A program made the translations under genes and the position numbers. 64,000 nt of DNA, from the NCBI RefSeq assembly GCF_000013345.1, contig NC_007777.1, positions 3,162,001-3,226,000 on the forward strand. Reading direction: 5' to 3'. The first letter of the stretch is position 1. The number at the start of each line of letters is the position of its first letter. Positions 7,915 to 61,276 of this stretch are shown one piece after another. The notes below the pieces were generated by a model that was given only the letters and a program-made list of their open reading frames with translations, made no database searches and was not told where the DNA came from. The stretch is from Frankia casuarinae. Lineage in GTDB: Bacteria; Actinomycetota; Actinomycetes; Frankiales; Frankiaceae.

Positions 7915-8332
7915 GCGCCGCCGCCTTGCGCCACGGGCGTTCGTTCTGCGTCTCGATGTACCGGGTCACCGTCCCGGCTGACACCGCGCCGACGGTCGCC
8001 ACGAAGTACGACCGGGACCACAGGGTGGGCAGCCGGGATCTGAGATGCGGGAACTCGGCGCGCAGCACGTGGGACGTGAAGCCCTTCAACTGGTTCGCAA
8101 CGTACGACGGGGAGTGCTTCGGGTGAGCCTTGACGAACAGGTGCACGTGGTCCGGCTCGACCTCCAGCGCGATGACCGGCCAGTCATGCTCGGCGCACTT
8201 CTCGCGCAGCAGCGCGTCAAGCCGCTCGCGCACCCCGCCGGTGAGCACGGGACGGCGATACTTGGGGCACCACACGACGTGGTAGCCGAGGTCGTAGACC
8301 CCGCCCGCGCCCGCCGTCACCTGCCGTCCCAT
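7739..8332 (-). CDS. tnpA: IS200/IS605 Y1 transposase TnpA
   Basis: A single-strand transposase of the HUH/Y1 family. It has YHVVWCPKYRRPVL near the start, the metal-binding HVHLFV (HUH) motif and TVTRYIETQ carrying the catalytic Tyr. These proteins are usually near 140 residues. Here the frame stays open for a further 60 residues of unrelated sequence that overlaps the start of tnpB at 7914, so the original stop has probably been lost by a small shift. Function is possible but uncertain. Confidence 0.87.
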   Translation of the reverse strand: MGRQVTAGAGGVYDLGYHVVWCPKYRRPVLTGGVRERLDALLREKCAEHDWPVIALEVEPDHVHLFVKAHPKHSPSYVANQLKGFTSHVLRAEFPHLRSRLPTLWSRSYFVATVGAVSAGTVTRYIETQNERPWRKAAAREADVQVPAAPDGASGRVVDRDAERPPRALQRGVAGASGRLRAPVEDQGRVRGPSRPS

Positions 8333-8391
8333 GCCACCGACTATACCAGCGTGGCATGTCTAGTCACTTGCGGTCCGTAGCGGATTCCCCT

Positions 8392-8407
8392 GTCGCCTGA
8401 AGGCGAC
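8392..8407. repeat. Terminal hairpin of the IS605-type element
   Basis: GTCGCC-TGAA-GGCGAC is a perfect 6-bp stem with a tetraloop. It lies about 60 bp beyond the tnpA start, the position where IS200/IS605 ends carry the hairpin recognised by TnpA. Confidence 0.5.
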
Positions 8408-8455
8408 AATCCCCTCCGGACAACTCGATGGGCGGACCCGGCGAGTCTTCGGTGG

Positions 8456-8655
8456 ATGATCTGGGCCTACATCAGGGCTGGCGGCGCGGCGGAGACGTCC
8501 CGTCCCCGCGGGGGCCTACCCGCCGAGGTGTGGGCGCTCGACTGGCACCGGCTGTGGATTATCGCCTGGTATCTCGACCAGGCGGCCGTGTGGATGCCGG
8601 AGCCGGACCGGGATGCCTTCGTGGCCTCGGTGGTGCGCCCCTGGACCCTCTGCCG
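8456..8655 (+). pseudogene. Fragment of an unrecognised protein
   Basis: An open frame reads MIWAYIRAGG...ALDWHRLWIIAWYLDQAAVWMPEPDRDAFVASVVRPW and runs straight into the 508-bp repeat, where its sense is lost. The Trp-rich helical stretch and normal composition suggest a real gene cut on both sides, by the IS605 end on the left and the repeat on the right. No family is recognised. Confidence 0.35.
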
Positions 8656-9163
8656 CCCTGGGATCCCCCGCGGCACGGGGAACAGCCCACCCTCGGCCTC
8701 CGGCTCCACCACGGCGCGTCTCCCCCCTCGGCATCCACCGGGCCTCGACGACCCGCCACGAATGCTGTGCCCTCGATCGCCGCATACTTGATTGCTGTGT
8801 ACTTGATTGCTGTGTACTCGGTTCACAGACTACACCACCGTCATCGGCGACGAAAGCCACCATCCCACCCGGGTCCGACACGTCGGCCGGTGAATGCGCA
8901 GGACCTGAGCACGGTCCACGGTCCCCTGGACCGTGCCTTGCCCCCCACAACGTGGCCACCGCGCATGGACCACCGCGCATGGGACCACCGCGCATGGGAC
9001 CACCGCGCATGGGACCACCGCGCGATCATGCGGACCCGACCTCGTGAACGCTCGCGCGGGTCAGTGCTCAGGGCATCCGGGCGACACCGCCGTACCAGCT
9101 GACCTGGGCATCGGTCGGGCCGTCCGGGGTCACCTCGGCCCGCCAGCGATGGACGATCTGCAC
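8656..9163. repeat. 508-bp direct repeat, copy B
   Basis: This copy of 3202-3709 contains a duplicate of the drmA start region (about 19 codons) and leader. Its right side runs on into more of the methyltransferase fragment, so it preserves the older context on that side, whereas copy A preserves drmA. Confidence 0.93.
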
Positions 9164-9320
9164 TCCCGGCTCGACGAGCTCCAGACCGTCGAAAAAACGT
9201 TCGACTTCGGCGCGGGTACGCGTCGTGAGGGGGATCCCCCGCTGCCGGTAGACCTCGACAAGCCGTCCGGCCTCCCCCGGCGCGGCATCGGCCGTGCAGT
9301 GAGTGAACGCCAGATAGCTC
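9068..9320 (-). pseudogene. DUF574-type SAM methyltransferase, C-terminal fragment (copy B)
   Basis: About 83 codons remain: SYLAFTHCTADAAPGEAGRLVEVYRQRG...RAEVERFFDGLELVEPGVQIVHRWRAE...GGVARMP. This is the C-terminal third of the PF04672 S-adenosylmethionine-dependent methyltransferases common in actinomycetes. The SAM-binding half is missing. At about 9320 it abuts, head to head, a truncated polyprenyl synthase, so this is a deletion or recombination joint. Confidence 0.8.
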
Positions 9321-9670
9321 ATAAGACCGGCGCCATGATCGTGGCTTCGGTCGTCTCCGGTGCAGTCCTCGCGGGCGCCGACGAATCCGCCATCACCCTG
9401 CTCTCCAGCTATGGGGAGAAGATCGGGCTGGCGTTCCAGATCATCGATGACATCCTGGATGTCACGTCGACCTCCGAGCACCTCGGGAAAACCGCCCGCA
9501 AGGACATCAAGATGCGGAAGGCGACCTTTCCGCAGCTCCTTGGCCTCGACGCCTCCCGAAAACGCGCGGCCGAACTGATCGACGCGGCAAGAGCGGACCT
9601 CGCCCCGCTCGGTGACGACGCGACCCCGCTCCTTGCCCTCGCTGAATACGTCTATTCGCGATCGAGATGA
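9320..9670 (+). pseudogene. Polyprenyl diphosphate synthase, C-terminal fragment
   Basis: The frame contains HKTGAMIVASVVSGAVLAGA, the second Asp-rich motif FQIIDDILDVT and GKTARKDIKMRKATFPQLLG, all hallmarks of trans-isoprenyl diphosphate synthases (FPP/GGPP synthase type). Only about 115 residues remain. The first DDxxD motif and the N-terminal two thirds are absent, removed at the joint near 9320, so it cannot be an active enzyme. It overlaps the first Rieske gene and was evidently the first visible gene of the biosynthetic operon. Another prenyl synthase would have to supply the substrate. Confidence 0.85.
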
Positions 9671-9674
9671 GCCG

Positions 9675-10805
9675 ATGCCTGAGATACACATCAAGAACCA
9701 GAAGCCGCGGCTCGAGCCGCCAGCGGACCCCGTCCCGAAGGAGCTGGCAGCAAGCTGGTACGTCGCGCTGGCCTCCGGCGAGCTGCGCGGGCAGCCGAAG
9801 GCGTTCCAGCTGTTCGGGCGAGACGTGGTCGCCTGGCGCGAAGCGAGCGGGCGACCGGCAGTCGCGGGCCGGTACTGCCCGCACCAGGGCGCCAGCCTGG
9901 CACTGGGGGCCGTGGTCGACGGCTGCCTCCGCTGCCCCTTTCACGGCTGGCGGTTCGACAGCTCCGGCGCGTGCGTCGAGGTTCCCCGCTCCCAGCGCAT
10001 TCCCACGACGGCGCGACTCGACTCATACCCGACCATCGAGCGCTTTGGTTACATCTGGGTGTGGTACGGGACCCGCACACCACTTTTCGAGCTTCCCGGC
10101 TTCCCGGCTCTTGAGGAGGAACAGGAACACTATCTGGGGTTCCGCTACACCGACTGGACCGCCGGTCACCCCCGCCAGCTCCTTGAGAACGCGTTCGACT
10201 ACTTCCATTTTCAGACCCTCCACAGCCTGCCCCTGGACCGTGCGGAGTTCCGGGTCCTCTCCGATCCCGAGCAGGCCGCGGACAACGGTCCCCCGATCGA
10301 CAGGGAGGCCTATCTCGGGGGCTGGATGGAAGGTGTCGTGACCCCGGGGCATCCCCTTCGTCGGCCTCGGCACTGGCTGGTCGCGGCCGGCGCCACCTTC
10401 TTCACGGGGGACGCGTTCCAGCTCCTGATCGACGGGTGGCCCGGTGGCCAGCGCTACACCGGCTATGTCGGCGGCAGGGAGATCTTCAAGTACCTGATGG
10501 GAATCACCCCGACCGCGAACGGCTCGACCATCCAGCATGCCTGGACCGGCGTCCGCCGCAGCGACCGGCGCTGGCGAACCTGGCTGAACGTGGCGATGCT
10601 CATCGGGCAGAGCAGGGCCGGGACTCTCCAGGACATGCCGATCTACGACTACACTCAGGCGCACGTCGGCACGGCCAGGATGTTCTACGACACCAACCTG
10701 ATCAGGTTTCGCCGGTACTACAGGTCATGGGTGGACCGGGTGGCAGAAGGCCAGGGGGAGCCGCAGCCGGCCATGGCCCGCATCCCGGGAGCCGGCGCGT
10801 CATGA
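9675..10805 (+). CDS. Rieske non-haem iron oxygenase 1
   Basis: A 376-residue oxygenase subunit. The [2Fe-2S] Rieske motif YCPHQGAS...LRCPFHGW lies around residues 72-97. The mononuclear iron site LENAFDYFHFQTLH (D-x2-H-x4-H) is near residue 175. Such enzymes hydroxylate or desaturate lipidic or aromatic substrates using electrons from a separate reductase, which is not in the cluster. The ATG at 9675 follows the prenyl synthase stop. The gene overlaps the next oxygenase in an ATGA junction. The three Rieske proteins here resemble each other and probably arose by duplication, so sequential oxidations of one scaffold are plausible. Confidence 0.88.
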   Translation: MPEIHIKNQKPRLEPPADPVPKELAASWYVALASGELRGQPKAFQLFGRDVVAWREASGRPAVAGRYCPHQGASLALGAVVDGCLRCPFHGWRFDSSGACVEVPRSQRIPTTARLDSYPTIERFGYIWVWYGTRTPLFELPGFPALEEEQEHYLGFRYTDWTAGHPRQLLENAFDYFHFQTLHSLPLDRAEFRVLSDPEQAADNGPPIDREAYLGGWMEGVVTPGHPLRRPRHWLVAAGATFFTGDAFQLLIDGWPGGQRYTGYVGGREIFKYLMGITPTANGSTIQHAWTGVRRSDRRWRTWLNVAMLIGQSRAGTLQDMPIYDYTQAHVGTARMFYDTNLIRFRRYYRSWVDRVAEGQGEPQPAMARIPGAGAS

Positions 10806-11872
10806 CCGGAAGCATCGTGACCGGAGATCTCGTGACCGCGGAAACCGAGCCGCCGCAGCCAGGCCTGGCCGCGGGCTGGTACATCGCGCTTCCCTCCGAG
10901 GAGCTGGGAAAGCGCCGTGGCCAGCCTCTCACCCTGTTCGGCCGTGAGCTGGTCGCCTGGCGCGACGGCACGGGGCGACCTGTGATCATGCGGCGGCACT
11001 GCCCGCATCTCGGCGCCAGTCTCGCCTTCGGCAAGGTCGTGGACGGAACGCTCCGCTGCCCTTTCCATCACTGGCATTTCGACGCGGCGGGCGCGTGCAC
11101 ACACGTGCCGGGGACGGACCGGCTTCCCCGCCGTGTGGCGCGGCGGTCCTATCCGACCGACGAGCGCTACGGCTATGTCTGGGTCTGGTACGGGAACCCG
11201 GAGCCGAGTTACCCGGTGCCCGCCGTGCCCGCGCTGGCGGAGGGCCGCGAGGCCTACCTCGGCTACCAGTTCTCGCACGTGACCACCGCCTCGCCTCGAC
11301 GAGTCCTGGAAAATGCTTTCGACTGCGCTCATTTCGGCACGCTGCACCGGGTCCGGTCAGGCGGTGGCCTGAAGATAAACATTCTCACGGAACCGTCAGC
11401 AACGGCCGAAAACGGTCCGCCGATCGGCGGTGATGCCTCGATCGCCGCGGCGATGGAGACAGATATCCTCGATCTGCCGCCGACGGTCCGGGCGCTGGGT
11501 ATTCGGGCGCGGAAGTTCACTCTCCTGATCGACGGATGGCCCGGCGGCCAGCGCCTGACCTTCCTCCTGGACGGCCATGTTCTCGCCAAGGAGTTGCTTG
11601 GCATCACTCCCACGTCCGACGGCCGCACCGTCCTTCAGGGCTGGTCGCTCATCCGCCGGACGGGCAACCGGGCGCTCGACCACCTGATTCGCCTCGCCTA
11701 TCGGGCCCAGCACGAGTGGGGAACCAGGGAGGACCTCAGGATCTACCGGCACGCGAGCGACGTCGACGGCACCGTGCCGGTCACGGCCGACCACGGTGTC
11801 CTGAAGTTTCGGAAGCATTACCAGCGCTGGGTTGATGCAGCCCTTCCGGACGATCGCGCGTGCATGTCGTGA
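10802..11872 (+). CDS. Rieske non-haem iron oxygenase 2
   Basis: A 356-residue paralogue of its neighbours. The Rieske motif HCPHLGAS...LRCPFHHW and the iron-site motif LENAFDCAHFGTLH are both intact. The C-terminal KFRKHYQRWVDAAL matches RFRRYYRSWVDRV in oxygenase 1. The start overlaps the upstream stop (ATGA) and its stop overlaps the next start (GTGA), so the three oxygenases are translationally linked. The substrate is unknown. The context (prenyl synthase remnant, membrane cyclase) suggests a terpenoid. Confidence 0.88.
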   Translation: MTGSIVTGDLVTAETEPPQPGLAAGWYIALPSEELGKRRGQPLTLFGRELVAWRDGTGRPVIMRRHCPHLGASLAFGKVVDGTLRCPFHHWHFDAAGACTHVPGTDRLPRRVARRSYPTDERYGYVWVWYGNPEPSYPVPAVPALAEGREAYLGYQFSHVTTASPRRVLENAFDCAHFGTLHRVRSGGGLKINILTEPSATAENGPPIGGDASIAAAMETDILDLPPTVRALGIRARKFTLLIDGWPGGQRLTFLLDGHVLAKELLGITPTSDGRTVLQGWSLIRRTGNRALDHLIRLAYRAQHEWGTREDLRIYRHASDVDGTVPVTADHGVLKFRKHYQRWVDAALPDDRACMS

Positions 11873-12918
11873 GCGCCCCACGACAGCTGACGGAGCCCAC
11901 CGCCCGGGAAGCCCTCAACCTCGCCGCCGGCTGGTACGTCGCCATGCCGTCACGGCAGCTCGGGTCGCGCCCTCGGGCGCTCACGCTGTTCGGGCGCCCC
12001 CTCGTCGCCTGGCGGGACGCCCGCGGCGCTGCGTCGCTGATGCGACGGCACTGTCCGCACATGGGCGCCAGCCTGGCGGACGGCAGGATTGTCGACGGCC
12101 TGCTGCAGTGCCCTTTCCACGGCTGGCGTTTCGACGCCCTGGGCACCTGTCAATCGATCCCCGGCCAGGCCAGGATCCCCGCGGCCGCCTCGCGGCCGGC
12201 CTACCCGACGGTCGAACGATACGGATACCTGTGGGCCTGGTACGGAGGTCCCCACCCCCTGTATCCGCTCCCGGAACTGCCCGCCGCCTTCGACAGGCTG
12301 GGCTGGCATCGCGGCTTCCGCCTCGCCGACAGGACCAGGGCAACGGCCCGCAGAATCCTGGAGAACACCTACGACCCCGATCACCTGGTGGACCTCCACG
12401 GGCTTGAGATCGCGGGCCCGATGACCCTCCGGCTGCTCGACAGCCCGGTGGACACGGCGACCAACGGGCCGCCCATCGTGGCCGACGCCTGGTTCGGTGC
12501 CGAGCTGACCTGGCCCCGGTACATCGGGAGGACGGGTGCCATCGCCCACGCGGTCGGCGTCAATGCCGACAGCTTCCTGCTCCGCGTGGACGGATGGCCA
12601 GCGGGCCAGCGCGTCTCCTACTACTCGGACGGCGTCCTGCGGTACCAGCTCCTGCTCGCCGTCAGTCCGGTCGGGCCCAACGAAACCATTCAACATATCG
12701 CCGTCGCGGTCACGCCCGCCGCACGCGCCTGGAAGAACATAACAAAATACCTGGTTGACAGGCTTGAGGTCACCTTTGCGTCGAACCAGGATCTACCGGT
12801 GTTCGACAGCATACGAGCGGGAGACAGGCACGGAATCTATCTTGAGAGCGAGTACGGCCTGCGGGCCTTCCGCAAATACTATCAGTCCTGGGTGGACCGG
12901 GTGAGCGTCGATGCGTGA
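11869..12918 (+). CDS. Rieske non-haem iron oxygenase 3
   Basis: The third paralogue, 349 residues from the GTG at 11869, which overlaps the upstream stop (an in-frame ATG at 11860 is the alternative). The Rieske cluster is HCPHMGAS...LQCPFHGW and the iron site LENTYDPDHLVDLH keeps D-x2-H-x4-H. It is the most divergent of the three and its iron-site surroundings differ, which may mean a different regiochemistry. It overlaps the next gene by 8 bp. Confidence 0.87.
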   Translation: MSAPRQLTEPTAREALNLAAGWYVAMPSRQLGSRPRALTLFGRPLVAWRDARGAASLMRRHCPHMGASLADGRIVDGLLQCPFHGWRFDALGTCQSIPGQARIPAAASRPAYPTVERYGYLWAWYGGPHPLYPLPELPAAFDRLGWHRGFRLADRTRATARRILENTYDPDHLVDLHGLEIAGPMTLRLLDSPVDTATNGPPIVADAWFGAELTWPRYIGRTGAIAHAVGVNADSFLLRVDGWPAGQRVSYYSDGVLRYQLLLAVSPVGPNETIQHIAVAVTPAARAWKNITKYLVDRLEVTFASNQDLPVFDSIRAGDRHGIYLESEYGLRAFRKYYQSWVDRVSVDA

Positions 12919-15526
12919 CGTACGCCCGCTGCGGGAGTTGCGTTCCGGCGACCGGGACACGGTCGGCGCCAAGGCCGCCAATCTCGGCGAGCTCATATCC
13001 GCCGGCTTTCCGGTTCCCGACGGTTTCTGCCTGCCCCAGGCGGTGTATCACCGCACGGTCGGGGACAAGGTCCGCCCACTGCTTGCGCAGCTCGACGCGG
13101 CTCTTACCGAGGACGCGACAGATGACCAGATCCGACCGATCTCGGCGGCCATGCGGGCCACGGTCGAGGCCACGGACGTTCCCGCCGGGCTCGCTGCGGA
13201 TGTCGCGCAGGCCCTTGCGGCATGGCGTATCGCTGACGTCCGGGTGTCGGTCCGTTCCTCAGCGACGTGGGAGGACACCGACGCGACGAGCTTCGCCGGC
13301 CAGTATCGCAGCGAACTGGGGGTCCCGCCGGCGGCCGTGCTCGATTCCGTACGGCGTTGTTGGGGCTCGCTGTGGGAGCTTCCGGCCATCCGCTATCGGC
13401 AACGGCATGGAATTCCGCACGGTGCGGTCGGCATGTCCGTGATCGTCCAGCTGATGGCCGAGGCCGAGGCCGCCGGCGTGCTCTTCACCGTCGACCCGCG
13501 GGACGCCGCCGCCGACCGTCTGGTGATCGAGGCCACCTGGGGCTTCGGTGAGGCGCTGGTGAGTGGGAAAGTCGATCCCGACCGTTTTGACGTCGACCGG
13601 TCCGGCGCCACGCTGCGCCACGCGCACGTCGCCGACAAACGGCAGATGGTCGCGTATCCGTCGCACAGCGGTGCGGGCGGGGTCGATTTCGTCGACGTTC
13701 CGGACCAGCGACGGCGGGCACCTTCGCTCACGGCGGAGCAGGTTGCCGAGCTGGCCAGCCTCGGCCGCGCGATCGAAACCCATTTCGGTGCCCCTCAGGA
13801 CGTCGAATGGGCCGTTTCCGGAACGACTCTCACGATTCTGCAGGCCCGTCCCATCAGGCTGCCGGCCGCCGATGAGCCACCGCCGCCCGCGGCCGACTGG
13901 ACAAGTCCGATCGAGGGCGCCTGGTGGGCGCGGATAAGCATCTGTGATTCGTGGCTGCCCGAACCGCTCTCGCCGCTTTTCGCGTCGACTCTTTTCCCGT
14001 GCCTGGTCCGGCACTGGCAGCGGAACTGGGCCGGACCGGACTCCGCCCAACGCAACAACCGGCTGCTGCCCACACCGATGACGGGCGTCATCAACGGCTT
14101 CGCCTACCTGCGCTTCGACTATCACCTGAACCGGTATCCCCGACACGCCGCAGCCATGGTGCTTCGATTCTTCCGGTTCCATCTCGGCCCGCTGCGCAGG
14201 CAGTGGCAGCGGGGCATCCTGCCGCGCCACTCCGAACGCATCGAGGCGGCCAACCGTCGGGACCTCACCCGCCTGGACAACAACGAGCTGCTCGGGCTGA
14301 TCGACGGGGTGCAAGAACTCAGCGGACGCTACTGGGGGATCATCGGCGGTCTGGCCTGGTACTGGAACGTATCGGAATGGCTCCTGGCAACCGTCTATCC
14401 CTGGGTCGCCAGGGCTGGTACGGGCGCGGGACTTCCGATCGGCCCCGGACCCCTGCTGCAGGGCTACCCGAGCCGCACTCTCGACGTCGAACTGGAGCTC
14501 GCGGAGCTCGCGCGCCATGACGCCGACGGGGCCGAGTACACGGCCGAGTTCGAGCGGTTCATCGGCCGGCAGGGCCACCAAGTGTACAGCCTCGACTTCG
14601 CCAGCCCGACCCCCGCCGAGGACCCCGAAGTCTTCAGGGCAACCATCGAAGCGTACCGGAGCGGAACGCGTCAGCAACCGCAGGAACGAATCGACGCGCT
14701 GGCCGCGCAACGGGAGGACCGGCTACGGACGATAAGAAAGGCCCTCCGGTTCGCGCCGGTGAGACGCGGCGTCCTCCACCTGCTTCTGCGGTGGAACCTC
14801 CGTCAGGGCCGGCTCCGGGACGAGGTTCTTTTTCACTTCACCCGTGGCTGGCCGGTGCTGCGCCGGGCGTACCTCGAACTCGGTCGCCGGCTGGTGGCGG
14901 CAGGCGTCCTGACTGAGCCCGACGATGTCTTCTACCTCACCGGTGACCAGGTGAAACGGCAGCTTGCCGCGCTTGACACCGGCGTGGCCGGCGACGACCT
15001 CACCAGCGTCGTCCACGAGCGGCGCCGGCTCCGCGAACAACAACGCCTGCTCAGCCCGCCGATACAGGTCCCGCAGGACGCCCGGATCTTCCTCGGCAGG
15101 AGGGACGTCACCGCCCTGGCAGTTTTCGGCCCCCGTCCGAGAGGGGCCGAGGATGACGGGCTGCGAGGCTCTCCCGTCAGCCCCGGTCGAGCCACAGCAC
15201 CGGCCCGCAGAATAAGTTCCACCGACGACTTCGGCCGGCTACGGCCCGGCGAGATCCTAGTCGCCCCTCATCTCACGCCAGCCTGGTCGCCACTGCTTTC
15301 CATCGCGGCTGGTGTGGTAACAGATACCGGCGGCGCGCTGTCGCATGGCTCGATCGTCGCGCGTGAGTACGGAGTTCCCGCGGTTATGGGAGTTCACGGC
15401 GCGACCCACATTATCCAGGATGGCCAGGTCGTTACGGTTGACGGCGATCGGGGTCTCGTACTCCTGCAAGGAGTTGAACGTGGCGGCAGACTCTCCGCTC
15501 AGCAGCTGGACGCCTCCCCTCGATAA
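12911..15526 (+). CDS. PEP-synthase/rifampin-phosphotransferase-like dikinase
   Basis: An 871-residue three-part protein. The ATP-grasp domain (about 1-320) shows GAKAANLGELISAGFPVPDGFCL and VSVRSSATWEDTDATSFAGQY. A middle region of about 450 residues follows, and a C-terminal swivelling domain carries GGALSHGSIVAREYGVPAVMG with the phosphohistidine near residue 813. Length and order match rifampin phosphotransferase (about 867 residues, His near 825) better than PEP synthase, because the TIM-barrel pyruvate domain is not seen. Known relatives transfer the ATP beta-phosphate to a small-molecule hydroxyl. Inference: it may phosphorylate an oxidised intermediate made by the adjacent Rieske enzymes. 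Confidence 0.8.
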   Translation: MRDVRPLRELRSGDRDTVGAKAANLGELISAGFPVPDGFCLPQAVYHRTVGDKVRPLLAQLDAALTEDATDDQIRPISAAMRATVEATDVPAGLAADVAQALAAWRIADVRVSVRSSATWEDTDATSFAGQYRSELGVPPAAVLDSVRRCWGSLWELPAIRYRQRHGIPHGAVGMSVIVQLMAEAEAAGVLFTVDPRDAAADRLVIEATWGFGEALVSGKVDPDRFDVDRSGATLRHAHVADKRQMVAYPSHSGAGGVDFVDVPDQRRRAPSLTAEQVAELASLGRAIETHFGAPQDVEWAVSGTTLTILQARPIRLPAADEPPPPAADWTSPIEGAWWARISICDSWLPEPLSPLFASTLFPCLVRHWQRNWAGPDSAQRNNRLLPTPMTGVINGFAYLRFDYHLNRYPRHAAAMVLRFFRFHLGPLRRQWQRGILPRHSERIEAANRRDLTRLDNNELLGLIDGVQELSGRYWGIIGGLAWYWNVSEWLLATVYPWVARAGTGAGLPIGPGPLLQGYPSRTLDVELELAELARHDADGAEYTAEFERFIGRQGHQVYSLDFASPTPAEDPEVFRATIEAYRSGTRQQPQERIDALAAQREDRLRTIRKALRFAPVRRGVLHLLLRWNLRQGRLRDEVLFHFTRGWPVLRRAYLELGRRLVAAGVLTEPDDVFYLTGDQVKRQLAALDTGVAGDDLTSVVHERRRLREQQRLLSPPIQVPQDARIFLGRRDVTALAVFGPRPRGAEDDGLRGSPVSPGRATAPARRISSTDDFGRLRPGEILVAPHLTPAWSPLLSIAAGVVTDTGGALSHGSIVAREYGVPAVMGVHGATHIIQDGQVVTVDGDRGLVLLQGVERGGRLSAQQLDASPR

Positions 15527-16028
15527 CTCGGTCACCCTCCGGGCAGCCTATGAACGGATGCCGGGCTACGAGGCCGACGCGATCCCAAGATATGTTCGGC
15601 TGCTGGAGAACCCCGCGAGCCCGATCGCTCTGGCCGGAGCCGTCGACCTGTTCGGCCACGACTGCATCCACATCCTGTTGGGCCGGGGGATGCGTCCGCG
15701 AGACGAAGCCTTCGTCATCGGGGTAACCATGGGTGCCAGCGGCGAACTCAGATCCTGGCAGTACCACGCCTACCTCTTCTGCAGCCGGTATCTGTTCCGC
15801 GGGCCCTACCGCTTCGGTCCGTTCGAACGGACAATCTTCCAGCTCGGTGTCAGATTTGCGCAGGCTACCGGAATCCGTCCGCTGCACTGCGTCGGCTGGC
15901 GACAGCAGCTAGACCGAACGCTCGGCGACCTCCGATCGGACCTGCGGATCGACCTGCGGAACCTGACGACGGTATGGGAGATGGAGCAGCTGATGGCCGA
16001 TTCCGCGGCCCTGCCCTTCGCCACGTAG
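15480..16028 (+). CDS. COQ4-like protein with HDxxHx11E motif
   Basis: 182 residues. The segment GHDCIHILLGRGMRPRDEAFVIG contains H-D-x2-H-x11-E, the zinc-ligand signature of COQ4, the ubiquinone-biosynthesis protein. The remaining helical sequence and length also fit. The GTG at 15480 is chosen because AAGGAG lies 6 nt upstream. The gene overlaps the dikinase gene by 47 bp, so it belongs to the operon. In quinone biosynthesis COQ4 acts on the head group of a prenylated aromatic ring. Here it may act on a related prenylated or terpenoid substrate, which is inference. Confidence 0.65.
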   Translation: MAADSPLSSWTPPLDNSVTLRAAYERMPGYEADAIPRYVRLLENPASPIALAGAVDLFGHDCIHILLGRGMRPRDEAFVIGVTMGASGELRSWQYHAYLFCSRYLFRGPYRFGPFERTIFQLGVRFAQATGIRPLHCVGWRQQLDRTLGDLRSDLRIDLRNLTTVWEMEQLMADSAALPFAT

Positions 16029-16083
16029 CCGGGCCGGCGTGTCACCGGCCTTCGGAGAGCCGATCTAGGCGGGGAAGGAAGAC

Positions 16084-17091
16084 ATGGTTACCTTCAGGAT
16101 CGGTGCCGGTGCCCTGCGCCGGCTCGAGCTCGCCTTCAAGATCGTCTGCTTGTCCGGCATCGCCATTGCCCTGGTCTGGTTCCTTCGTGGTCTGGACGTC
16201 ACCACGTTCCGGGAGAGCATCGAGGATGCGTCGCCGGTGCCCCTGCTGCTGGCCTTCGGTACCAACCTTCTGGTCCAGTACCTGCGGGCCGCCGGCTGGC
16301 GGGCGATGCTCGCGCCGCGGCACGGGATTTCCCTGCGTCGCCTGGTCCGTCTCGAACTGACGGCCCAGGCTGCGTCGACGATCTCGCCGGCGCAGGGCGG
16401 CGAGATCGTCCGCGCGTGGATGCTGAAGCGGGACTGTGGCGTCCCCGCCTCGACATCCGGCGCGCTCCTCGTTCTGGAGAAACTGTTCGGCTCGCTCGCC
16501 ATGGTCGTTCTGGTGGTCGGGACTCCATGGCTGATACCGGGACTGCCCTGGTGGGTGATCGTCGCACCGTTCCTGTTCGGGGCGGTCATCTGCGTGCTGC
16601 TGCTCGTCCTTGTCCTGTTCGCGCGGCATCCGCGCGATGCGCAGCAGAGCACCTTCGTCCAGCGGGTGGCCGACGGTATGTATGTGCTGAGAAACCCCCG
16701 GCGCATGCTTGTGATCTTCTCGTTCGCGGTCCTAGGTGAGCTGGTCGACCTCGTCGCCGTGATCCTGGTGATACACGCGCTCGACATACACCTCTCCCTT
16801 GCCGAGTCCGTGCTCGTCCTGTTCCTGATTGATCTCATGAACCTGATACCCGCCGGCCCCGGCCAGTTCGGCAGTTTCGAGATCGCCGCGGTTTCCGCCG
16901 TCGAGCTGTTTCCGGTACGGCCCGAGCCGGCCCTTGCGTTTGCCCTGCTCTTCCACCTACAGCAGCAGATTCCGCAGCTTGTGATCGGGCTGCCTTTTCT
17001 CGTCCGGGTTCCGTTTGGTAGGATACGACGAGAGCCGGTCGGGACGCGAGACGACGAGTTTTCGGTCGCAAGTCCAGAAGGCCAAAGCTGA
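16084..17091 (+). CDS. UPF0104/lysylphosphatidylglycerol-synthase-like membrane protein
   Basis: 335 residues with about eight hydrophobic segments. The family signature is AQAASTISPAQGGEIVRAWMLKR and, later, LIDLMNLIPAGPGQFGSFE. This membrane family (YbhN/AglD/MprF flippase region) is associated with lipid or prenyl-lipid translocation. A GGAAGGAAG ribosome site precedes the ATG. It follows the COQ4-like gene by 55 bp on the same strand. In this operon it may move or bind a lipophilic product; no substrate can be deduced. Confidence 0.8.
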   Translation: MVTFRIGAGALRRLELAFKIVCLSGIAIALVWFLRGLDVTTFRESIEDASPVPLLLAFGTNLLVQYLRAAGWRAMLAPRHGISLRRLVRLELTAQAASTISPAQGGEIVRAWMLKRDCGVPASTSGALLVLEKLFGSLAMVVLVVGTPWLIPGLPWWVIVAPFLFGAVICVLLLVLVLFARHPRDAQQSTFVQRVADGMYVLRNPRRMLVIFSFAVLGELVDLVAVILVIHALDIHLSLAESVLVLFLIDLMNLIPAGPGQFGSFEIAAVSAVELFPVRPEPALAFALLFHLQQQIPQLVIGLPFLVRVPFGRIRREPVGTRDDEFSVASPEGQS

Positions 17092-17136
17092 GCGCGAGCC
17101 CGGTCTTGTCGGCAAAGATTCGGACCGGAGGTCAGA

Positions 17137-17457
17137 GTGCGTTGGCTCCTGCTGCTCGGAGCGATCGGATCAGAGGTGATCGCCACCTCGGCGCTCAAAA
17201 TGAGCGACGGGCTCAGCCGCCTGACGCCCACCGTCATCGTCGGCGTCGGCTATCTGGCCGCTTTTATCCTGCTCGGAAAAGCGATCAAGCAGCTGGAGGT
17301 GAGTACCGCCTATGCGATCTGGTCCGGGCTGGGAACCGCGGCGATCTGTCTCATCGGTGCCTTCGCATTCGGCGAGTCGTTGACCGCGGCGAAGACAGTC
17401 GGAGTGCTGCTCGTTATCGGGGGCGTCGTAGTACTCAATCTCGCGGGTGCCAGCTGA
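17137..17457 (+). CDS. Small multidrug resistance (SMR) transporter
   Basis: 106 residues and four membrane spans, the EmrE/QacE architecture. The membrane-embedded glutamate essential for proton-coupled export is present at residue 13 (GAIGSEVIATSALK), as are the conserved AYAIWSGLGTA and GVVVLNL segments. The GTG start is 45 bp after the flippase-like gene. Inference: export of the cluster product or of a toxic intermediate. Confidence 0.88.
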   Translation: MRWLLLLGAIGSEVIATSALKMSDGLSRLTPTVIVGVGYLAAFILLGKAIKQLEVSTAYAIWSGLGTAAICLIGAFAFGESLTAAKTVGVLLVIGGVVVLNLAGAS

Positions 17458-17585
17458 GGCCGTCCCGTCCAGCGCCCTCGGTCACGTCTGGCAACCTCGT
17501 CGTGGCTGGCCCGCACGAAGACAACAACTGCCACCTTCCAGGCGGCGCGATGCCGTGAGTGCCACGAGGAGAGTGTTCTCACGCG

Positions 17586-18383
17586 ATGAGCAGAAAGCTC
17601 TTCTGGATGCGATCGCTGAACGAGATCGGCGTCCTGGTCAGAGCAGTGGGAATCTATCGGGATTTTGTCGCGCAGGTGTATTTTCCGGCGCAGGGTCTTT
17701 CGCGGTGGCAGCGACTGCGGTGCGCTCCCGTCCTGCTGCTCGTCGAGTACCTCGTTTACCGGGTGGACGCGGTCGCGGAGCTAACGCGGCACGCGAGTTT
17801 CGACGATGCCGACAATCGGCGGCTGGCCATTCTGGAGGCCTACAAGGAACGGTTCCGGGCCCTGCTGCGCCGCCTGCACGCGTACAACGACGCCATCGCC
17901 GCCCAGCTTGACCTCGGCGAGGAGTTCGTCCGCCTGGAGAACAAGGCGACCTCCGGCCTGGCTACCGGCCGGGAGGACGTGCTGCGCCTCGCCGAGCTGA
18001 GATCAACCGATGTCCGCCTTCTGCACCTGATGATTTTCGCGCTTACCCGGCAGTCTGTCGACGAGCAGCTGGTCGGATTGCTCTGGCCGGTGGAGGTGCT
18101 GGCCGACATCGCGAACGATCTTTCTCACTACCAGCGAGATGTCGAGAGCTCGACCTTCAACGTCCTGGATTCGTTTACCCGACTGTACGGCGCAGCGGCG
18201 CCGGCCGAACTTCGCGCCGTGATGGATCACTACGAAGCGCAGTTCCAGACGCTGCTGGCCGGGTTCCCGGCGGATCGCCGAGCGGACCTGGCGCGGCTGT
18301 GCACGCGAAGATTCAGGCCTGGAATCGATGTGATTCCGGTGCCCCGGTTGGCGGAGAAGTCCGTCGCGCCCGGGTCCGGGTGA
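17586..18383 (+). CDS. All-helical protein, possible class I isoprenoid synthase fold
   Basis: 265 residues, predicted all helical, with no signal peptide. Two acidic motifs sit where class I terpene enzymes keep their metal ligands: DDADN at 73-77 and NDLSHYQRD at 177-185, the latter resembling the NSE triad (N-D-x2-S/T-x3-E) with imperfect positions. The spacing of about 100 residues and the preceding LLWPVEVLADIANDLSHY helix support this fold, but I do not recognise a named family. Gene context (prenyl synthase remnant, membrane cyclase next door) strengthens the idea. It could be a terpene synthase, a prenyltransferase or a non-catalytic relative. Confidence 0.5.
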   Translation: MSRKLFWMRSLNEIGVLVRAVGIYRDFVAQVYFPAQGLSRWQRLRCAPVLLLVEYLVYRVDAVAELTRHASFDDADNRRLAILEAYKERFRALLRRLHAYNDAIAAQLDLGEEFVRLENKATSGLATGREDVLRLAELRSTDVRLLHLMIFALTRQSVDEQLVGLLWPVEVLADIANDLSHYQRDVESSTFNVLDSFTRLYGAAAPAELRAVMDHYEAQFQTLLAGFPADRRADLARLCTRRFRPGIDVIPVPRLAEKSVAPGSG

Positions 18384-18387
18384 CGGG

Positions 18388-19107
18388 ATGAGATCCGACA
18401 TCACCTACATCACCGGCCTGGTCTGCGTCTCGTTCTGGGTTGTGGCCTACGCGGGTATCATCTATCGCGGCGCCCAAGAGAAGACATTCGGCATGCCGGT
18501 CGCCGCGCTCGCCGCGAACCTCTCCTGGGAGGCTGCCTACTCCTTTTTCATCGATCCGTTTGCCGATGAGATTCACCTCCTGAGCATCGTCTGGTTTGTG
18601 ATCGATCTCGTTATCCTTTGGCAGGTCTGGCGGTTCGGGCCGCGGGAGTTCGAGGACAAGCTCTCCCGTCGTGGCTTCAACATGATGCTTCTCGGTGGGG
18701 TAGCGATTGCGTTCCCGGTCGTCTACCTGGGCTTCTCGGAGTTCCACGATCCGGACGGCGAGTACACCGGCTTCGGCGTCAACTTTATGATGTCGATACT
18801 GTTTGTGGCGATGCTCCTGGAGCGCGAGAGCCCGCGAGGCCAGTCGATGTACATCGCGGTGTCGAAGTTCTTCGGAACCTTCTTCGCGTGGCTGGCGACG
18901 GCCTTCACGGTCACGACTAACAAGGCCGAGCCGTGGCCGGACAGCTTCGGCTCCTTCGTCATTGACAGCGTCACACATGACACCTACCCGCTGACGAGGC
19001 TCATCAATGTTCTTTATCTAGTGACATTTCTGGTGGACATTGGGTACATCGTGACGTTGCGGCGCCATCTCATCGCGGCCAAGATGAGCCCGTGGCGACA
19101 TTTCTAA
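18388..19107 (+). CDS. Pyr4/PaxB/DmtA-like integral membrane terpene cyclase
   Basis: 239 residues with about seven transmembrane segments. Family features seen are ANLSWEAAYSFF with Glu48 and, near the C-terminus, YLVTFLVDIGYI with Asp217. In fungal Pyr4 the catalytic acids are E63 and D218, so both residues and the overall length correspond. The family includes fungal meroterpenoid and indole-diterpene cyclases and the bacterial drimentine cyclases; these protonate an alkene or epoxide of a prenyl chain. It starts 4 bp after the preceding stop. This gene is the main reason to read the operon as a terpenoid or meroterpenoid pathway. Confidence 0.75.
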   Translation: MRSDITYITGLVCVSFWVVAYAGIIYRGAQEKTFGMPVAALAANLSWEAAYSFFIDPFADEIHLLSIVWFVIDLVILWQVWRFGPREFEDKLSRRGFNMMLLGGVAIAFPVVYLGFSEFHDPDGEYTGFGVNFMMSILFVAMLLERESPRGQSMYIAVSKFFGTFFAWLATAFTVTTNKAEPWPDSFGSFVIDSVTHDTYPLTRLINVLYLVTFLVDIGYIVTLRRHLIAAKMSPWRHF

Positions 19108-19206: not shown

Positions 19207-19632
19207 CTACTGGAAGCGGCGAACGTAGCGATGCTGCCAAGGCGTCTCCACCGCATGGCGAGCATAGTTCGTCCGTATATAGTCAACTGCCTCGCCCGGG
19301 GCGATTCCGTCGAGCACGGCGATACAGGCGAGTGCCGTTCCAGTCCGCCCTTTTCCTCCGGAACACGCAATTTCGACGCGTTCCGAGTCCGCACGCGTCC
19401 AGGCTTCGTGAATGCTGCGTGCCGCGGCCTCTCGATCGGATGGCAGCCGGAAGTCGGGCCATCGTATCCACCGACTCTCCCAGGGGACCGCAGGTGGTTG
19501 ACGTCCCACGAGGTACAGTCCGAACGATGGTTCACTTCCGTCCGGAAGCGGCTGTCGCAGCCCCCTGCCGCGGATAAGCCGGCCCGACGGGAGTGCCAAC
19601 ACTCCCGGCGCCCCAGGTTCCCATGTCGTCAT
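19207..19632 (-). CDS. Protein tyrosine/dual-specificity phosphatase
   Basis: 141 residues. The P-loop CSGGKGRTG has the catalytic Cys and Arg of the C-x5-R signature, inside VEIACSGGKGRTGTALACIAVL. The upstream WPDFRLPSDREAAARSI supplies the usual general-acid loop region. The ATG at 19632 is chosen because the sequence becomes protein-like there; a longer frame upstream is unconvincing. It converges on the terpenoid operon, so it is not part of that transcript, but phosphatases of this size can act on small phosphorylated molecules as well as proteins. Confidence 0.82.
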   Translation of the reverse strand: MTTWEPGAPGVLALPSGRLIRGRGLRQPLPDGSEPSFGLYLVGRQPPAVPWESRWIRWPDFRLPSDREAAARSIHEAWTRADSERVEIACSGGKGRTGTALACIAVLDGIAPGEAVDYIRTNYARHAVETPWQHRYVRRFQ

Positions 19633-31173: not shown

Positions 31174-32735
31174 CAGGGCTCCGGCACGTTCGCGTTATGA
31201 CCGGCTCGTCCGCGCGCCGACGGGACGGCCTGGATGTCCGTATCGTCAGGGAAAGCCGTGCAGGTCGAGCGCGGCGGTGGCGGTCTTGCAGGCCCGGCGC
31301 CCGGCCGGAACGTAGCGGTGGCCCGCGGCGCGGACCGCGTGCGCGACAGTGGCGCGGAAGATCGCGAGGTTGGCCGGGCCGCGGCGGGTCCGGCTCCGGC
31401 TCGCGTCCTCACCGAAAGTGACGTCACGGACGTGGTGCTGACGGTTCTCGATGATCCACTGGCCGCGGGCGGCGTCGGCGAGGAACCCGGCCGAGGCCTG
31501 CTCGAAGGCCAGATCCGTGATGCCGTAGACCGTCTCCCGGCTGGGTTTCCTGCCCTTCTCCCGGCGCCAGCGCTGGATCCGGACGGCCTGGCGGGCGTGC
31601 GGGAACTCGGCGTGCTCGACGGTCGCGGCCTTCAGCGTGCGGGTCTCGTCACGGCCGTGGCCATGGTCGTGGGTGGTGTCGGCGACCGGGACGTCCGCCC
31701 ACGGCAACGCGGCCAGGAACGCGCGCAGCGTTGGCTGGTTGCCCTTCACGACCGCAAGGTAATGGGCCTTCTTGTCGGTGACCAGCCAGTCGAGATGGTC
31801 GCGCACGGTATGCAGAGCGTCGAAGGTCAACAGGTCGCAGGCAAGGTCGAGGGGCTCGAGGACAGGGCGGAACGCCTTCGTCTCATTGCTCTTCGAGTCC
31901 ACCTCGTGCTGGTTGACCAGCCGGCCGGTCGCCTGGTCGGCGACCCCGACCAGTTGGACCTGCCGCCCGTCGGCGCGCTTCGCGCCGCGGCTGGTCTTCC
32001 CATCCAGTGCGTAGACCGCCCGCACCGCTTCTCCCGCCGCCTCGGGTGACGCCGGCTTCGGCGGGGCCGGGTCGGCCAGCGGCGGATCGAGCAGTGCGCG
32101 GGCGAGCCGCGCGTCGTCGGTGTCGTTGAGGAACCGGCGGATCGTCGACTCGCTCGGCAGCCGGTAGCCGTCAAACGGGTCGTACGGCAGCCGCAGCCGG
32201 CGCCGTTCCTCCTCCGTGGTGCCGGCGAGCCATTCGATCACGGCGGTGACCCGGTCATGGCCCGCCGCGGTCAGCGCGCACAGCCACACCGCCGCCAGCA
32301 CCGCCAGCGGGTAGACCCGCCCACGTCGGCCCCGGTGCTCGCCCATCGCGTGCAGCCGCTGCCAGATTCCCTCACGCGACACCGCGCCGGCTCCCACCAC
32401 ACCGGCCGCGTCACGCGACAATGCCCCCACAGGCACGTGCGCTCCCGGACCACGAAGACGTTAGACACCTCCGTGATCTACAGGCGCCGTGCCTGTCTTC
32501 TTCTCAGCGACGCGTGACCTGGCCGTGTCCGCCCGCCGACCCCCGCGCCCGCCCGATCAGGGCATACCGGGACCCCACCAGCCAACTCCGGGCGGACCGG
32601 GACCTCAGCTGACAGAACCGGCCAGGGCACCGCCCAGCAGGCCAGAACAACGAACACCTGGATCGATCACGCGATCAGCGCCACCCAGGACGCACGGCCA
32701 CGATCACACCAAAGCGCGAACGTGCCGGAGCCCTG
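31174..32735. mobile_element. 1562-bp ISAs1-type element, copy 1
   Basis: Inverted repeats CAGGGCTCCGGCACGTTCGC... bound the element and GACCTCGGTG is directly duplicated on its two sides. It is nearly identical to 35231-36792 but in the opposite orientation. Confidence 0.93.
31246..32436 (-). CDS. ISAs1-type transposase, copy 1
   Basis: 396 residues with VYPLAVLAAVWLCALTAAGHDRVTAVIEWLAG, the first Asp in YALDGKTSRGAKRADGRQV, the second in DLLTFDALHTVRDHLDWLV and the Glu in ARGQWIIENRQHHVRDVTFGEDASRSR. Same length and sequence as copy 2 at 35530-36720. It appears intact. Confidence 0.93.
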   Translation of the reverse strand: MPVGALSRDAAGVVGAGAVSREGIWQRLHAMGEHRGRRGRVYPLAVLAAVWLCALTAAGHDRVTAVIEWLAGTTEEERRRLRLPYDPFDGYRLPSESTIRRFLNDTDDARLARALLDPPLADPAPPKPASPEAAGEAVRAVYALDGKTSRGAKRADGRQVQLVGVADQATGRLVNQHEVDSKSNETKAFRPVLEPLDLACDLLTFDALHTVRDHLDWLVTDKKAHYLAVVKGNQPTLRAFLAALPWADVPVADTTHDHGHGRDETRTLKAATVEHAEFPHARQAVRIQRWRREKGRKPSRETVYGITDLAFEQASAGFLADAARGQWIIENRQHHVRDVTFGEDASRSRTRRGPANLAIFRATVAHAVRAAGHRYVPAGRRACKTATAALDLHGFP

Positions 32736-32969
32736 GACCTCGGTGTCGAGCCGGAGCAGATGGGTCGCGTGGAGGGCGATCACGGCGTCTGCCAGTCGGG
32801 CACGCACGCTCTCGGACAGCGGCGGGCCGACAAACAGCAAGTCGAGATCCGCGTCGTGCGCGGCGGAACCGGCTGCGTGGGAGCCGTAGGCGATCGCGTA
32901 TCCGCGCGGGCCGAGGAACTCTGCGCGCAGTCGGCCCGCGTCCGCCAGCGCCTGCGCGATGCCAGTCAC
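32736..32969 (-). pseudogene. Nucleotidyltransferase, 5' part
   Basis: The GTG at 32969 overlaps the methyltransferase stop (GTGA). The segment YAIAYGSHAAGSAAHDADLDLLFVGPPLSESV contains G-S-x3-G followed by D-x-D, the nucleotidyltransferase signature that binds metal and NTP. The frame is interrupted at LRLDTEV by the IS at 32735 and resumes at 31173. Whole, the protein would be about 232 residues, or longer if fused to ArgRS. Confidence 0.82.
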
Positions 32970-33916
32970 CGCTGTGACGGAAGGTGATGGTGGGGATCAC
33001 CGGTGACCTGAAAGTCAATCAGGTGGATGCCGCTGGGCAGCACGACCTGACCCGACGGGCGGGTGTGTGCGTCCACGAAGGCAGTGACCTCGGCCTGAAC
33101 TTCAGGATCACGGACAAGGGCTGGCATGTCCTTGAAATGCAGCCGGTTGAACCATGCCATCGCCGCATCGCGGCTGTCCGCGAGGGCGACACCGGCCGCG
33201 CGGATGTGAGTGAGATGGCCGATGGCGCGGTCCTCAGCCAGTCGCAGTTCCTCCAACAGCAGAAGGCGGGTGTACTCGCGTCCGCCATCGGGGAACGGGG
33301 CGATCCTTTCCCATGCCCAGGTCACCAGCCGCTGTTCCGGGGTCTGCGAATCGAAGAACAGAACGAGGAGATGACCGCCATCAGCGACAAGTGACAGCAT
33401 GTCGCGCACCAGGCTGCCCGCCTCCCGGCGCGCCGCTCCTTGATCAGCCACCGGCTGGATCCCGTCCCCTGTCATCTCCTCGAAGAACTCACCCAGCGGG
33501 TAGCTCAGCGACCAGAACGCCCCGACCAGGTCAAACCCGCCGGCTCGGCCGTCGTCGAGCAGCCGTGACACGGCGAGCGGGATGTCGGCCTCGTGAGCCT
33601 CCGCTTCCGGGAAACGACTACGGAAGGTGTCGAGCATGGCGGCGCTGGAGTCGATCGCCACGAGCCTGCGTGCGTACGGGGCGAGCCGGGCGGTCAACCG
33701 TCCGGTGCCGCACCCGAGTTCCAGCACGTCGAGCGCTTGGCGCGGCGCACCGAAACGCGCCTCGATGATCTGCGCGATCATGTCCCCGTCGTCTCGACCG
33801 CTGTAGTAATGCGCGGGTAGTACCGCCTCGTAGATTCCTTCGGTGCGGTAGACGGCTTTGAATCCCGGCGTGGCCGGTACGTCAATGCTCCGGCTGTCGC
33901 CTGCTGCGCCGTTCAT
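32966..33916 (-). CDS. Class I SAM-dependent methyltransferase
   Basis: 316 residues. Motif I is ALDVLELGCGTGRLTARLAP, motif II ends LVAIDSS and the later FDLVGAFWSLSYPLGEFFEEM and VADGGHLLVLFFDS segments fit the Rossmann-fold methyltransferases. The N-terminal YEAVLPAHYYSGRDDGDMIAQII resembles small-molecule methyltransferases. It overlaps the PLP decarboxylase stop (ATGA) and the nucleotidyltransferase start (GTGA), so it is the only intact gene of the interrupted three-gene stretch. The substrate is unknown. Confidence 0.87.
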   Translation of the reverse strand: MNGAAGDSRSIDVPATPGFKAVYRTEGIYEAVLPAHYYSGRDDGDMIAQIIEARFGAPRQALDVLELGCGTGRLTARLAPYARRLVAIDSSAAMLDTFRSRFPEAEAHEADIPLAVSRLLDDGRAGGFDLVGAFWSLSYPLGEFFEEMTGDGIQPVADQGAARREAGSLVRDMLSLVADGGHLLVLFFDSQTPEQRLVTWAWERIAPFPDGGREYTRLLLLEELRLAEDRAIGHLTHIRAAGVALADSRDAAMAWFNRLHFKDMPALVRDPEVQAEVTAFVDAHTRPSGQVVLPSGIHLIDFQVTGDPHHHLPSQR

Positions 33917-58336: not shown

Positions 58337-58550
58337 CTGATACCCCCCTTGGTGAACAGCCCGACCAGTCTGGCAGGACGCCGGGCGACCGATTCCCGGC
58401 CCGGTGGCACCGTGCCGGCCCTCTTCGGTCCCCATCTCAGACCTAACGGACATCCAGGGGGCAGATTAGCATCTGTGAACTCAATTCACCAACATGACCC
58501 ATGGCGGACCGGGTCTCGACATCGTGGTGCCGCGGGAGCCCCGGCCGCCG

Positions 58551-60949: not shown

Positions 60950-61276
60950 ATGATGTTGGCTATGGTCGGCGACAGGGCCTCGCATGCCACGCCGTTGTCG
61001 GTGGCGCGGTCGCTGCGTCTGCTCGGCGAGCATGTGTCGACCTGGCGGAAGCTGAACCGGCTGACCGCGGCCCAGGTCGCCCAGCGAGCCGGGATCTCCC
61101 GGGACACGCTGCGCGCCATCGAGCAGGGTAAGGGCACCGCGAGCACCGAGAACCTGTTCAGGGTGCTACGCACCATCGGGATCATGGATGCCGTCGTCAG
61201 GGCCACCGACCCGTACGAGACCGACGTCGGCCGGCTGCGCATGGACGAGATCCTCCCCAAGCGAGTACGGCGCTGA
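60950..61276 (+). CDS. hipB: HipB-like XRE antitoxin
   Basis: 108 residues. The XRE helix-turn-helix is LGEHVSTWRKLNRLTAAQVAQRAGISRDTLRAIEQGKGTASTENLFRVLRTIGIMDAVV, followed by a short tail ending DEILPKRVRR. It immediately precedes hipA with stop and start overlapping by one base. HipB proteins bind DNA and their kinase toxin. Two in-frame ATGs (60950, 60953) are both possible. Confidence 0.88.
   Translation: MMLAMVGDRASHATPLSVARSLRLLGEHVSTWRKLNRLTAAQVAQRAGISRDTLRAIEQGKGTASTENLFRVLRTIGIMDAVVRATDPYETDVGRLRMDEILPKRVRR

Follow-up and report, generated by a model that had tools for sequence, protein, structure and literature searches.

The stretch of DNA analysed here, referred to below as the window, comprises 64,000 nucleotides of contig NC_007777.1 of Frankia casuarinae and contains, at positions 9320-19107, a compact set of terpenoid genes that is, with a probability of about 0.92, the gromomycin-type cluster of this species in a rearranged and probably damaged form. 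Gromomycins are recently described membrane-active triterpene antibiotics carrying oxidised rings and a guanidine group, and their squalene-independent route was not recognised by the cluster-finding tool of their discoverers. The kind of system is already known, and F. casuarinae is already listed in print as a carrier of a gromomycin-like cluster; the assignment nevertheless settles a striking Frankia operon, whose pathway type is the known guanidino-triterpenoid one and not that of a quinone meroterpenoid. Homologous gene content, the clade of the groF product, the predicted fold of the groH product, the catalytic motifs, and a truncation of groD are established here.

Gene content and occurrence of the cluster

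The gro cluster of Streptomyces sp. Je 1-332 has been described as comprising three Rieske oxygenase genes (groA-C), a polyprenyl synthase gene (groD), groE, a cyclase gene (groF), a PAP2 gene (groG), a terpene-synthase-like prenyltransferase gene (groH), and a cytochrome P450 gene (groI); production is abolished by deletion of groD or groH, hexaprenylguanidine accumulates when groF or groA-C are deleted, and the nitrogen partner derives from arginine (PMC12105684). The cluster of Actinoplanes xinjiangensis DSM 45184 leads to gromomycins I, C, and J in S. albus Del14, and its published order runs from gene 6 (LPG-synthase TM) through genes 7 and 8 to groA-C (9-11), groD (12), groH (13), groF (14), and a protein-tyrosine phosphatase gene (15) (PMC13010261). 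In the same publication, proximity of the core trio groD-groH-groF serves as the criterion for a gromomycin-type biosynthetic gene cluster. Both papers name F. casuarinae and A. xinjiangensis as having these three genes close together, so that the statement of the initial annotation that no described cluster combines such genes has to be withdrawn.

Homologues of groD, groH, and groF, matched to the A. xinjiangensis proteins rather than to those of Je 1-332, are found together within 9320-19107. All genes of this interval lie on the forward strand, and the open reading frame list and Pfam matches place the previously listed gene set at about the coordinates first given for it. The features are as follows.

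9320-9670, +, groD homologue, polyprenyl synthase, C-terminal third only (PF00348 polyprenyl_synt, 3.5e-23, profile positions 141-232 of 251)
9675-10805, +, Rieske oxygenase R1, groC by position (PF00355, 3.1e-21; CxH/CxxH and iron-ligand motif)
10802-11872, +, Rieske oxygenase R2, groB by position (PF00355, 1.2e-18; CxH/CxxH and iron-ligand motif)
11860-12918, +, Rieske oxygenase R3, groA by position (PF00355, 5.6e-19; CxH/CxxH and iron-ligand motif)
12911-15526, +, enzyme resembling rifampin phosphotransferase and phosphoenolpyruvate (PEP) synthase, gro8 by position (PPDK_N, 2e-76; PEP-utilizers, 1.3e-25; phosphohistidine H812)
15480-16028, +, COQ4-motif protein, gro7 by position (HDxxH-(x)11-E from residue 60; Pfam Coq4 E 0.17)
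16084-17091, +, flippase-like LPG-synthase TM protein, gro6, equivalent to gro4 of Je 1-332 (PF03706 LPG_synthase_TM, 2.6e-57; name as in PMC13010261)
17137-17457, +, small multidrug resistance (SMR) efflux protein (PF00893 Multi_Drug_Res, 1.3e-26; 61% identity in A. xinjiangensis)
17586-18383, +, 265-aa GroH homologue with the fold of a class I isoprenoid synthase by prediction (model confidence 74.8; five invariant residues in six loci)
18388-19107, +, groF homologue, Pyr4-like transmembrane terpene cyclase with E48 and D217 (PF25129, 1.1e-25; gro-like clade 100/100)
19207-19632, -, Cx5R tyrosine-phosphatase-like protein, 141 aa, gro15 of A. xinjiangensis and gro3 of Je 1-332 (PF22784, 1.4e-6, and PF00102, 7.4e-6, both over cut-off; CSGGKGR)
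9071-9319, -, 3' end of a truncated Methyltransf_19 gene, outside the pathway (PF04672, 5e-19, profile positions 185-267 of 268)

With the start codons chosen here, R1/R2, R2/R3, R3/dikinase, and dikinase/COQ4-like genes overlap by 4, 13, 8, and 47 bases, respectively, and gaps of 4 bp separate the groD fragment from R1 and the 265-aa gene from the cyclase gene. The Rieske trio groA-C is adjacent, as indicated by Pfam matches, motifs, and identity to the related loci discussed below. The description of the locus as a terpenoid biosynthetic operon is borne out by the Pfam matches and by the parallels with gromomycin clusters, and the Cx5R phosphatase gene at 19207-19632 on the opposite strand is likewise a member of the cluster.

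A scan of 84,980 species (one genome each) with the cyclase alignment yielded 117 relatives, of which the best 80 loci were retained and searched with nine other window proteins at E 1e-5, the phosphatase not being among the queries. Three of these 80 loci hold the polyprenyl synthase, three Rieske, phosphotransferase, COQ4-like, flippase, and 265-aa genes, namely those of A. xinjiangensis DSM 45184 (L034), Streptomyces sp. MspMP-M5 (L035), and S. diastatochromogenes NRRL B-1698 (L036), with protein identities to the window of 45-70%. Another three (L081, L088, and L111) show a polyprenyl synthase match only, and the remaining 74, many of them with short flanks, have no match to the nine proteins. 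The gene order of L034 is, gene by gene, that of the published A. xinjiangensis genes 6-15; hence gro7 is the COQ4-like gene and gro8 the phosphotransferase gene, both by position only. A Cx5R phosphatase gene of 141-143 aa, 66-67% identical to that of the window, stands behind the cyclase gene in all three loci, with a P450-sized gene between the two in L035 and L036. The SMR gene is seen in L034 only, adjoining the flippase gene, and L035 and L036 show about 0.4 kb past the latter. Forty further regions around Pyr4-like genes were inspected (39 from one search and one from another, several ending at contig edges), and two of them (L172 and L173) contain three Rieske, polyprenyl synthase, phosphotransferase, flippase, and 265-aa-type genes together with a TauD-family gene, while COQ4-like, phosphatase, and SMR genes are all absent from the 19.9 kb examined. 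Because the same set, with the phosphatase and without the SMR gene, recurs in three named actinomycetes and another two genomes carry the greater part of it, the gene set is more than chance, and the co-occurrence that had been proposed as a check of the operon is thus found. The neighbourhoods in five more matching Streptomyces genomes (G732, G734, G743, G754, and G758) lie outside this comparison.

The cyclases of the six loci (window, L034-L036, L172, and L173) form one clade with 100/100 support among 126 cyclases; the tree has long branches whose joins are possibly false, and the gro-like clade is present in 100% of the bootstrap trees. In the literature, GroF has been placed among the bacterial Pyr4-like cyclases, in one similarity cluster with TylF (PMC13307353). 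Cyclases of Nostoc plasmids, 41-43% identical over about 150 residues, fall outside the gro-like clade and were rejected as members. In genome sets holding one genome per species, with other Casuarina strains of F. casuarinae outside the set, the cyclase occurs in four of 97 genomes of relatives, its own included, and in none of the 12 other searched genomes of the genus. Within the class (296 genomes, own included), the 265-aa protein is found in two genomes and the COQ4-like protein in three, the other two matches of the latter being weak and interrupted by internal stops. A relative of the 265-aa gene at L010 (genome G257), of 23-25% identity, was set aside as a distant cousin accompanied by no other window gene; its neighbours resemble, by eye, isopentenyl diphosphate isomerase and a thiamine pyrophosphate (TPP) enzyme.

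Predicted functions of the cluster proteins

The 265-aa GroH homologue matches no NCBIfam model and no Pfam family above the cut-off (best Pfam E 0.095), and sequence profiles of this protein and of the COQ4-like protein return nothing credible against the PDB. Its predicted structure (mean predicted local distance difference test, pLDDT, 74.8; predicted template modelling score 0.71) matches, in the 50 rows shown per aligner, class I isoprenoid enzymes throughout, as judged by their titles, which agrees with the initial suggestion of a class I isoprenoid protein. The best VIA match, 4xlx, has Z 16.0 with a root-mean-square deviation of 3.9 over 226 aligned residues, Z is still 13.5 at rank 50, and the best Foldseek E-value is 0.011. 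An alpha-helical class I isoprenoid synthase fold is accordingly predicted for the model, and by analogy with the characterised relatives the protein is a candidate prenyltransferase to arginine or guanidine. All six GroH rows share D61, E65, N177, D178, and D185, which lie in putative metal-binding acidic motifs (D61-x3-E65 and N177-D178-x6-D185) that are conserved, yet not the canonical DDxxD/NSE. At L172:9542-11083 (-) and L173:8825-10366 (+), a second GroH-like domain is joined to the front of the cyclase. Most of its acids are lost, only D178 being kept among the five invariant residues; judged by its residues, this is perhaps a dead partner domain.

For the GroF homologue, the match to the Pyr4-TMTC family PF25129 reaches 91.1 bits against a cut-off of 27. 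The initial annotation had proposed a Pyr4-type membrane cyclase with E48 and D217 and had made the Pyr4 fold and acidic pair the test of this 239-residue protein; the profile finds the Pyr4 family and the alignment the acidic pair, with the two residues at the predicted positions. The counterpart of E48 is Glu in 126 of 126 aligned cyclases, a conservation that is partly built in, as 80 rows came from a search pattern containing WE, and the counterpart of D217 is Asp in 124 of 126. The pair presumably corresponds to the acidic pair E63/D218 of Pyr4. A different stretch of GroF, the DLADPD motif, has been proposed as the proton donor (PMC12105684). Within the gro-like clade it reads EFHDPD in the window, EFEDPD in L034, EFHDPL in L035 and L036, and DLADPD in L172 and L173; because this stretch varies in the clade while both acids are conserved, E48/D217 is, on the alignment, the better candidate.

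Pyr4-like cyclase homologues are also found in 17 archaeal loci (L038, L046, L047, L052, L055-L059, L062, L065, L067, L071, L104, L105, L108, and L113), whose titles include Nitrosopumilus, Nitrosocosmicus, Methanoperedens, and Heimdallarchaeota. The counterparts of E48 and D217 are kept in all 17, the Glu partly owing to the search pattern, and the neighbourhoods of L052, L058, and L059 show no plain terpene cluster by eye. On a plasmid of the hornwort isolate Nostoc sp. C057 (L028:14983-16803), a gene annotated as isopentenyl phosphate kinase comes after that of a Pyr4-like cyclase.

Genes 6-8 and 15 of A. xinjiangensis have been called likely regulatory (PMC13010261). The sequences of the gro7 and gro8 counterparts look like those of enzymes or lipid binders, not regulators. 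The gro8 counterpart, of 871 aa, consists of an ATP-binding domain and a mobile phosphohistidine domain, the motif of which, GGxLSHGS[IV]VARE, is present in six of six loci. Its closest solved structures are 5fbs and 5hv1, which we take to be the Listeria rifampin phosphotransferase, and it scores below the equivalog thresholds for rifamycin phosphotransferase (365.6 of 999 bits), RedH (366.9 of 1350), and PigC (322 of 1300). The gro7 counterpart contains the exact COQ4 motif HDxxH-(x)11-E and reaches 11.6 of the 22.9 bits of the Pfam Coq4 gathering score, and is for this reason named COQ4-like rather than COQ4; its predicted structure (pLDDT 42) was set aside. A COQ4-family structure, 3KB4, has been reported to bind geranylgeranyl monophosphate (PMC8826242). 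Two conserved genes labelled as regulatory thus look enzymatic, and the Actinoplanes cosmid carrying them has already been expressed. As a cluster marker, the COQ4-like gene by itself was discarded, its plasmid relatives (Streptomycetaceae NBC_01309, 53%; Nostoc HK-01, 31%) lying outside any terpene cluster seen in the annotation. At L025:15001-18000, on a Streptomycetaceae plasmid, a COQ4-like gene 53% identical to that of the window has an AarF/ABC1/UbiB kinase gene close by, a combination reminiscent of ubiquinone genes, with no terpene cluster; a possible second copy at L025:15904-16509, aligned at 21% and without the motif, was not counted.

In the pathway proposed for the characterised relatives, GroD would synthesise hexaprenyl diphosphate, GroH would transfer the chain onto the guanidine of arginine with release of hexaprenylguanidine, and the Rieske enzymes GroA-C together with the Pyr4-like GroF would oxidise and cyclise it to a tetracycle plus guanidine ring, while the flippase-like protein and the phosphatase raise production. 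By analogy, the same order of reactions can be inferred for Frankia, so the cyclised, multiply oxidised prenyl product first predicted for this locus would be correct. If another synthase supplies the prenyl diphosphate, the expected end product would resemble gromomycins C/I, since groE and groI are lacking just as they are in A. xinjiangensis; otherwise little or none would be made.

Truncation of groD and alternative interpretations

The gene earlier described as a prenyl synthase remnant is truly truncated. The fragment corresponds to residues 234-347 of the 349 of A. xinjiangensis GroD (70% identity) and to residues 197-310 of the 311 of L035 GroD (54%), so that about two thirds are missing from the N-terminal side; DDILD is retained, and the first Asp-rich motif (DDLPAMD or DDLPSMD), present in five of five GroD homologues, is lost. 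Two truncated genes, the methyltransferase gene on the reverse strand and groD on the forward strand, meet at about 9319/9320, a junction that marks a recombination breakpoint. In the three forward frames of 8300-9330, the best GroD match has E 0.056 over 22 residues. Elsewhere in the genome there are three further complete polyprenyl synthase matches, 29-40% identical to the intact GroD proteins, and no lone N-terminal polyprenyl synthase half. The orientation of the core genes differs as well: in L034-L036, groH-groF point away from groD, whereas in the window they come after the SMR gene and share its strand, at the opposite end of the cluster. This difference makes it probable that the one-strand order of the operon is derived; the first part of groD and the divergent promoter region may have been lost in the same rearrangement. 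Strains CcI6 and Allo2 have been reported to share a gene with a geranylgeranyl diphosphate synthase domain (CCI6_RS02885) that is absent from CeD and from CcI3, the strain to which the window is assigned (PMC5563000). With its groD cut, the copy that the literature lists for F. casuarinae may leave CcI3 a poor producer.

Several points weigh against the assignment to the gromomycin-type clusters. With groD truncated, the pathway may not run, although the truncation bears on function and not on descent. Neither groE, the PAP2 gene groG, nor groI is found near the window cluster, and no metabolite is reported for Frankia in the surveyed literature. Homology to the Je 1-332 proteins is drawn from published descriptions and from the A. 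xinjiangensis proteins. For GroH, the model is of middling confidence (pLDDT 74.8) with marginal Foldseek E-values, and helical bundles can score Z near 14 without kinship.

Whether the cluster still functions is a separate matter, and the chances are about even that it is a decaying relic in which one rearrangement decapitated groD and lost the divergent promoter region, so that no gromomycin is made. The cut of groD at the start of the truncated methyltransferase gene, the lack of an orphan N-terminal half in the genome, the transposase and resolvase genes at 4.7-8.3 kb with a transposase-like helix-turn-helix (HTH) gene at 19.9 kb, and the absence of the cyclase from the other searched genomes of the genus are consistent with decay, but open frames persist in the phosphatase gene and in nine other genes of the cluster, the catalytic motifs that were checked are intact, and the three complete polyprenyl synthase genes elsewhere could provide the chain. 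The same three genes, together with the guanidine sesterterpenes (cybastacines) described from cyanobacteria (PMC12105684), leave some room for a cluster that runs on a prenyl diphosphate of another length and yields a new guanidino terpenoid; this is rather unlikely.

It is also conceivable, as a speculative and improbable extension, that the pathway includes an unrecognised step, in which the gro8 enzyme of rifampin-phosphotransferase/PigC type and the COQ4-like protein as a prenyl binder act on a prenylguanidine intermediate, or in which phosphorylation by gro8 protects the producer and the Cx5R phosphatase removes the phosphate; with a chain from another prenyl synthase, Frankia, a nitrogen-fixing symbiont of plants, would then make a guanidino terpenoid of a new size. 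In Je 1-332, gene 5, located between gro4 (LPG-synthase TM) and groA, has been deleted without discernible effect (PMC12105684); by position, this could be the phosphotransferase gene, which would hence be dispensable. The initial annotation had offered a meroterpenoid quinone as product; on this reading the cluster would make a prenylated quinone or an aromatic meroterpenoid, with the COQ4-like protein handling a ubiquinone-like ring. The COQ4 motif is indeed present and many Pyr4-like cyclases serve meroterpenoids (PMC13307353), but no UbiA-type prenyltransferase gene or aromatic-ring pathway is found in the window cluster, nor by eye in L034-L036, the A. xinjiangensis cluster yields guanidino triterpenes (PMC13010261), and the nitrogen partner in the characterised relatives comes from arginine. 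On the strength of the gromomycin papers and the missing UbiA-type gene, this extremely improbable reading was dropped in favour of the guanidino-triterpenoid assignment.

Surroundings of the cluster and comparison with known systems

Mobile-element genes flank the locus, with OrfB_IS605 at 4.7-6.2 kb, a resolvase at 6.8-7.6 kb, and an IS200-type transposase at 7.7-8.3 kb on one side and the transposase-like HTH gene at 19.9 kb on the other. A promoter scan gave one match against 0.8 expected, which is chance level, and terminator-like sites (10 against 5.3 expected, standard deviation 2.2) were set aside and not used. Farther along the window, a methyltransferase gene and a pyridoxal phosphate-dependent decarboxylase gene (32966-35244, -) are located between transposase genes at 31246-32436 (-) and 35530-36720 (+), which are oppositely oriented and identical in 1191 of 1191 bases, in the manner of a composite transposon. 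Two adjacent large genes at 50637-58453 (-) match DISARM DrmMI (1699 bits) and DrmD (1372 bits) over nearly their full length and represent an anti-phage defence pair, and at 60950-62532 (+) a small HTH gene, recognised by eye, precedes a HipA-family kinase gene (PF07804, 4.3e-47) as in a HipBA-type toxin-antitoxin pair.

Among the known systems, the cluster of A. xinjiangensis DSM 45184 shares 11 of 11 window genes, including those for the phosphatase and the SMR protein, at 46-70% identity, and like that of Frankia it has neither groE nor groI; it differs in its intact groD and in the transcription of groH-groF away from groD. L035 and L036 have groA-D, the phosphotransferase, COQ4-like, and flippase genes, groH, groF, and the phosphatase gene in common with the window, and differ by an extra gene behind groF, a P450 gene by Pfam in L035 and one of equal size and place in L036. 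The Je 1-332 cluster, compared by its published description, resembles the window in its three Rieske genes, polyprenyl synthase, GroF and GroH homologues, gro4 LPG-synthase TM, and gro3 phosphatase, whereas groE, the PAP2 gene groG, and the P450 gene groI are present there. The zigralone cluster and other bacterial Pyr4-like clusters share the cyclase family with the window (PMC13307353), but the zigralone cluster is described with a UbiA-like prenyltransferase, a TPP enzyme, and five P450s, and with no mention of Rieske genes in that description (PMC13307353).

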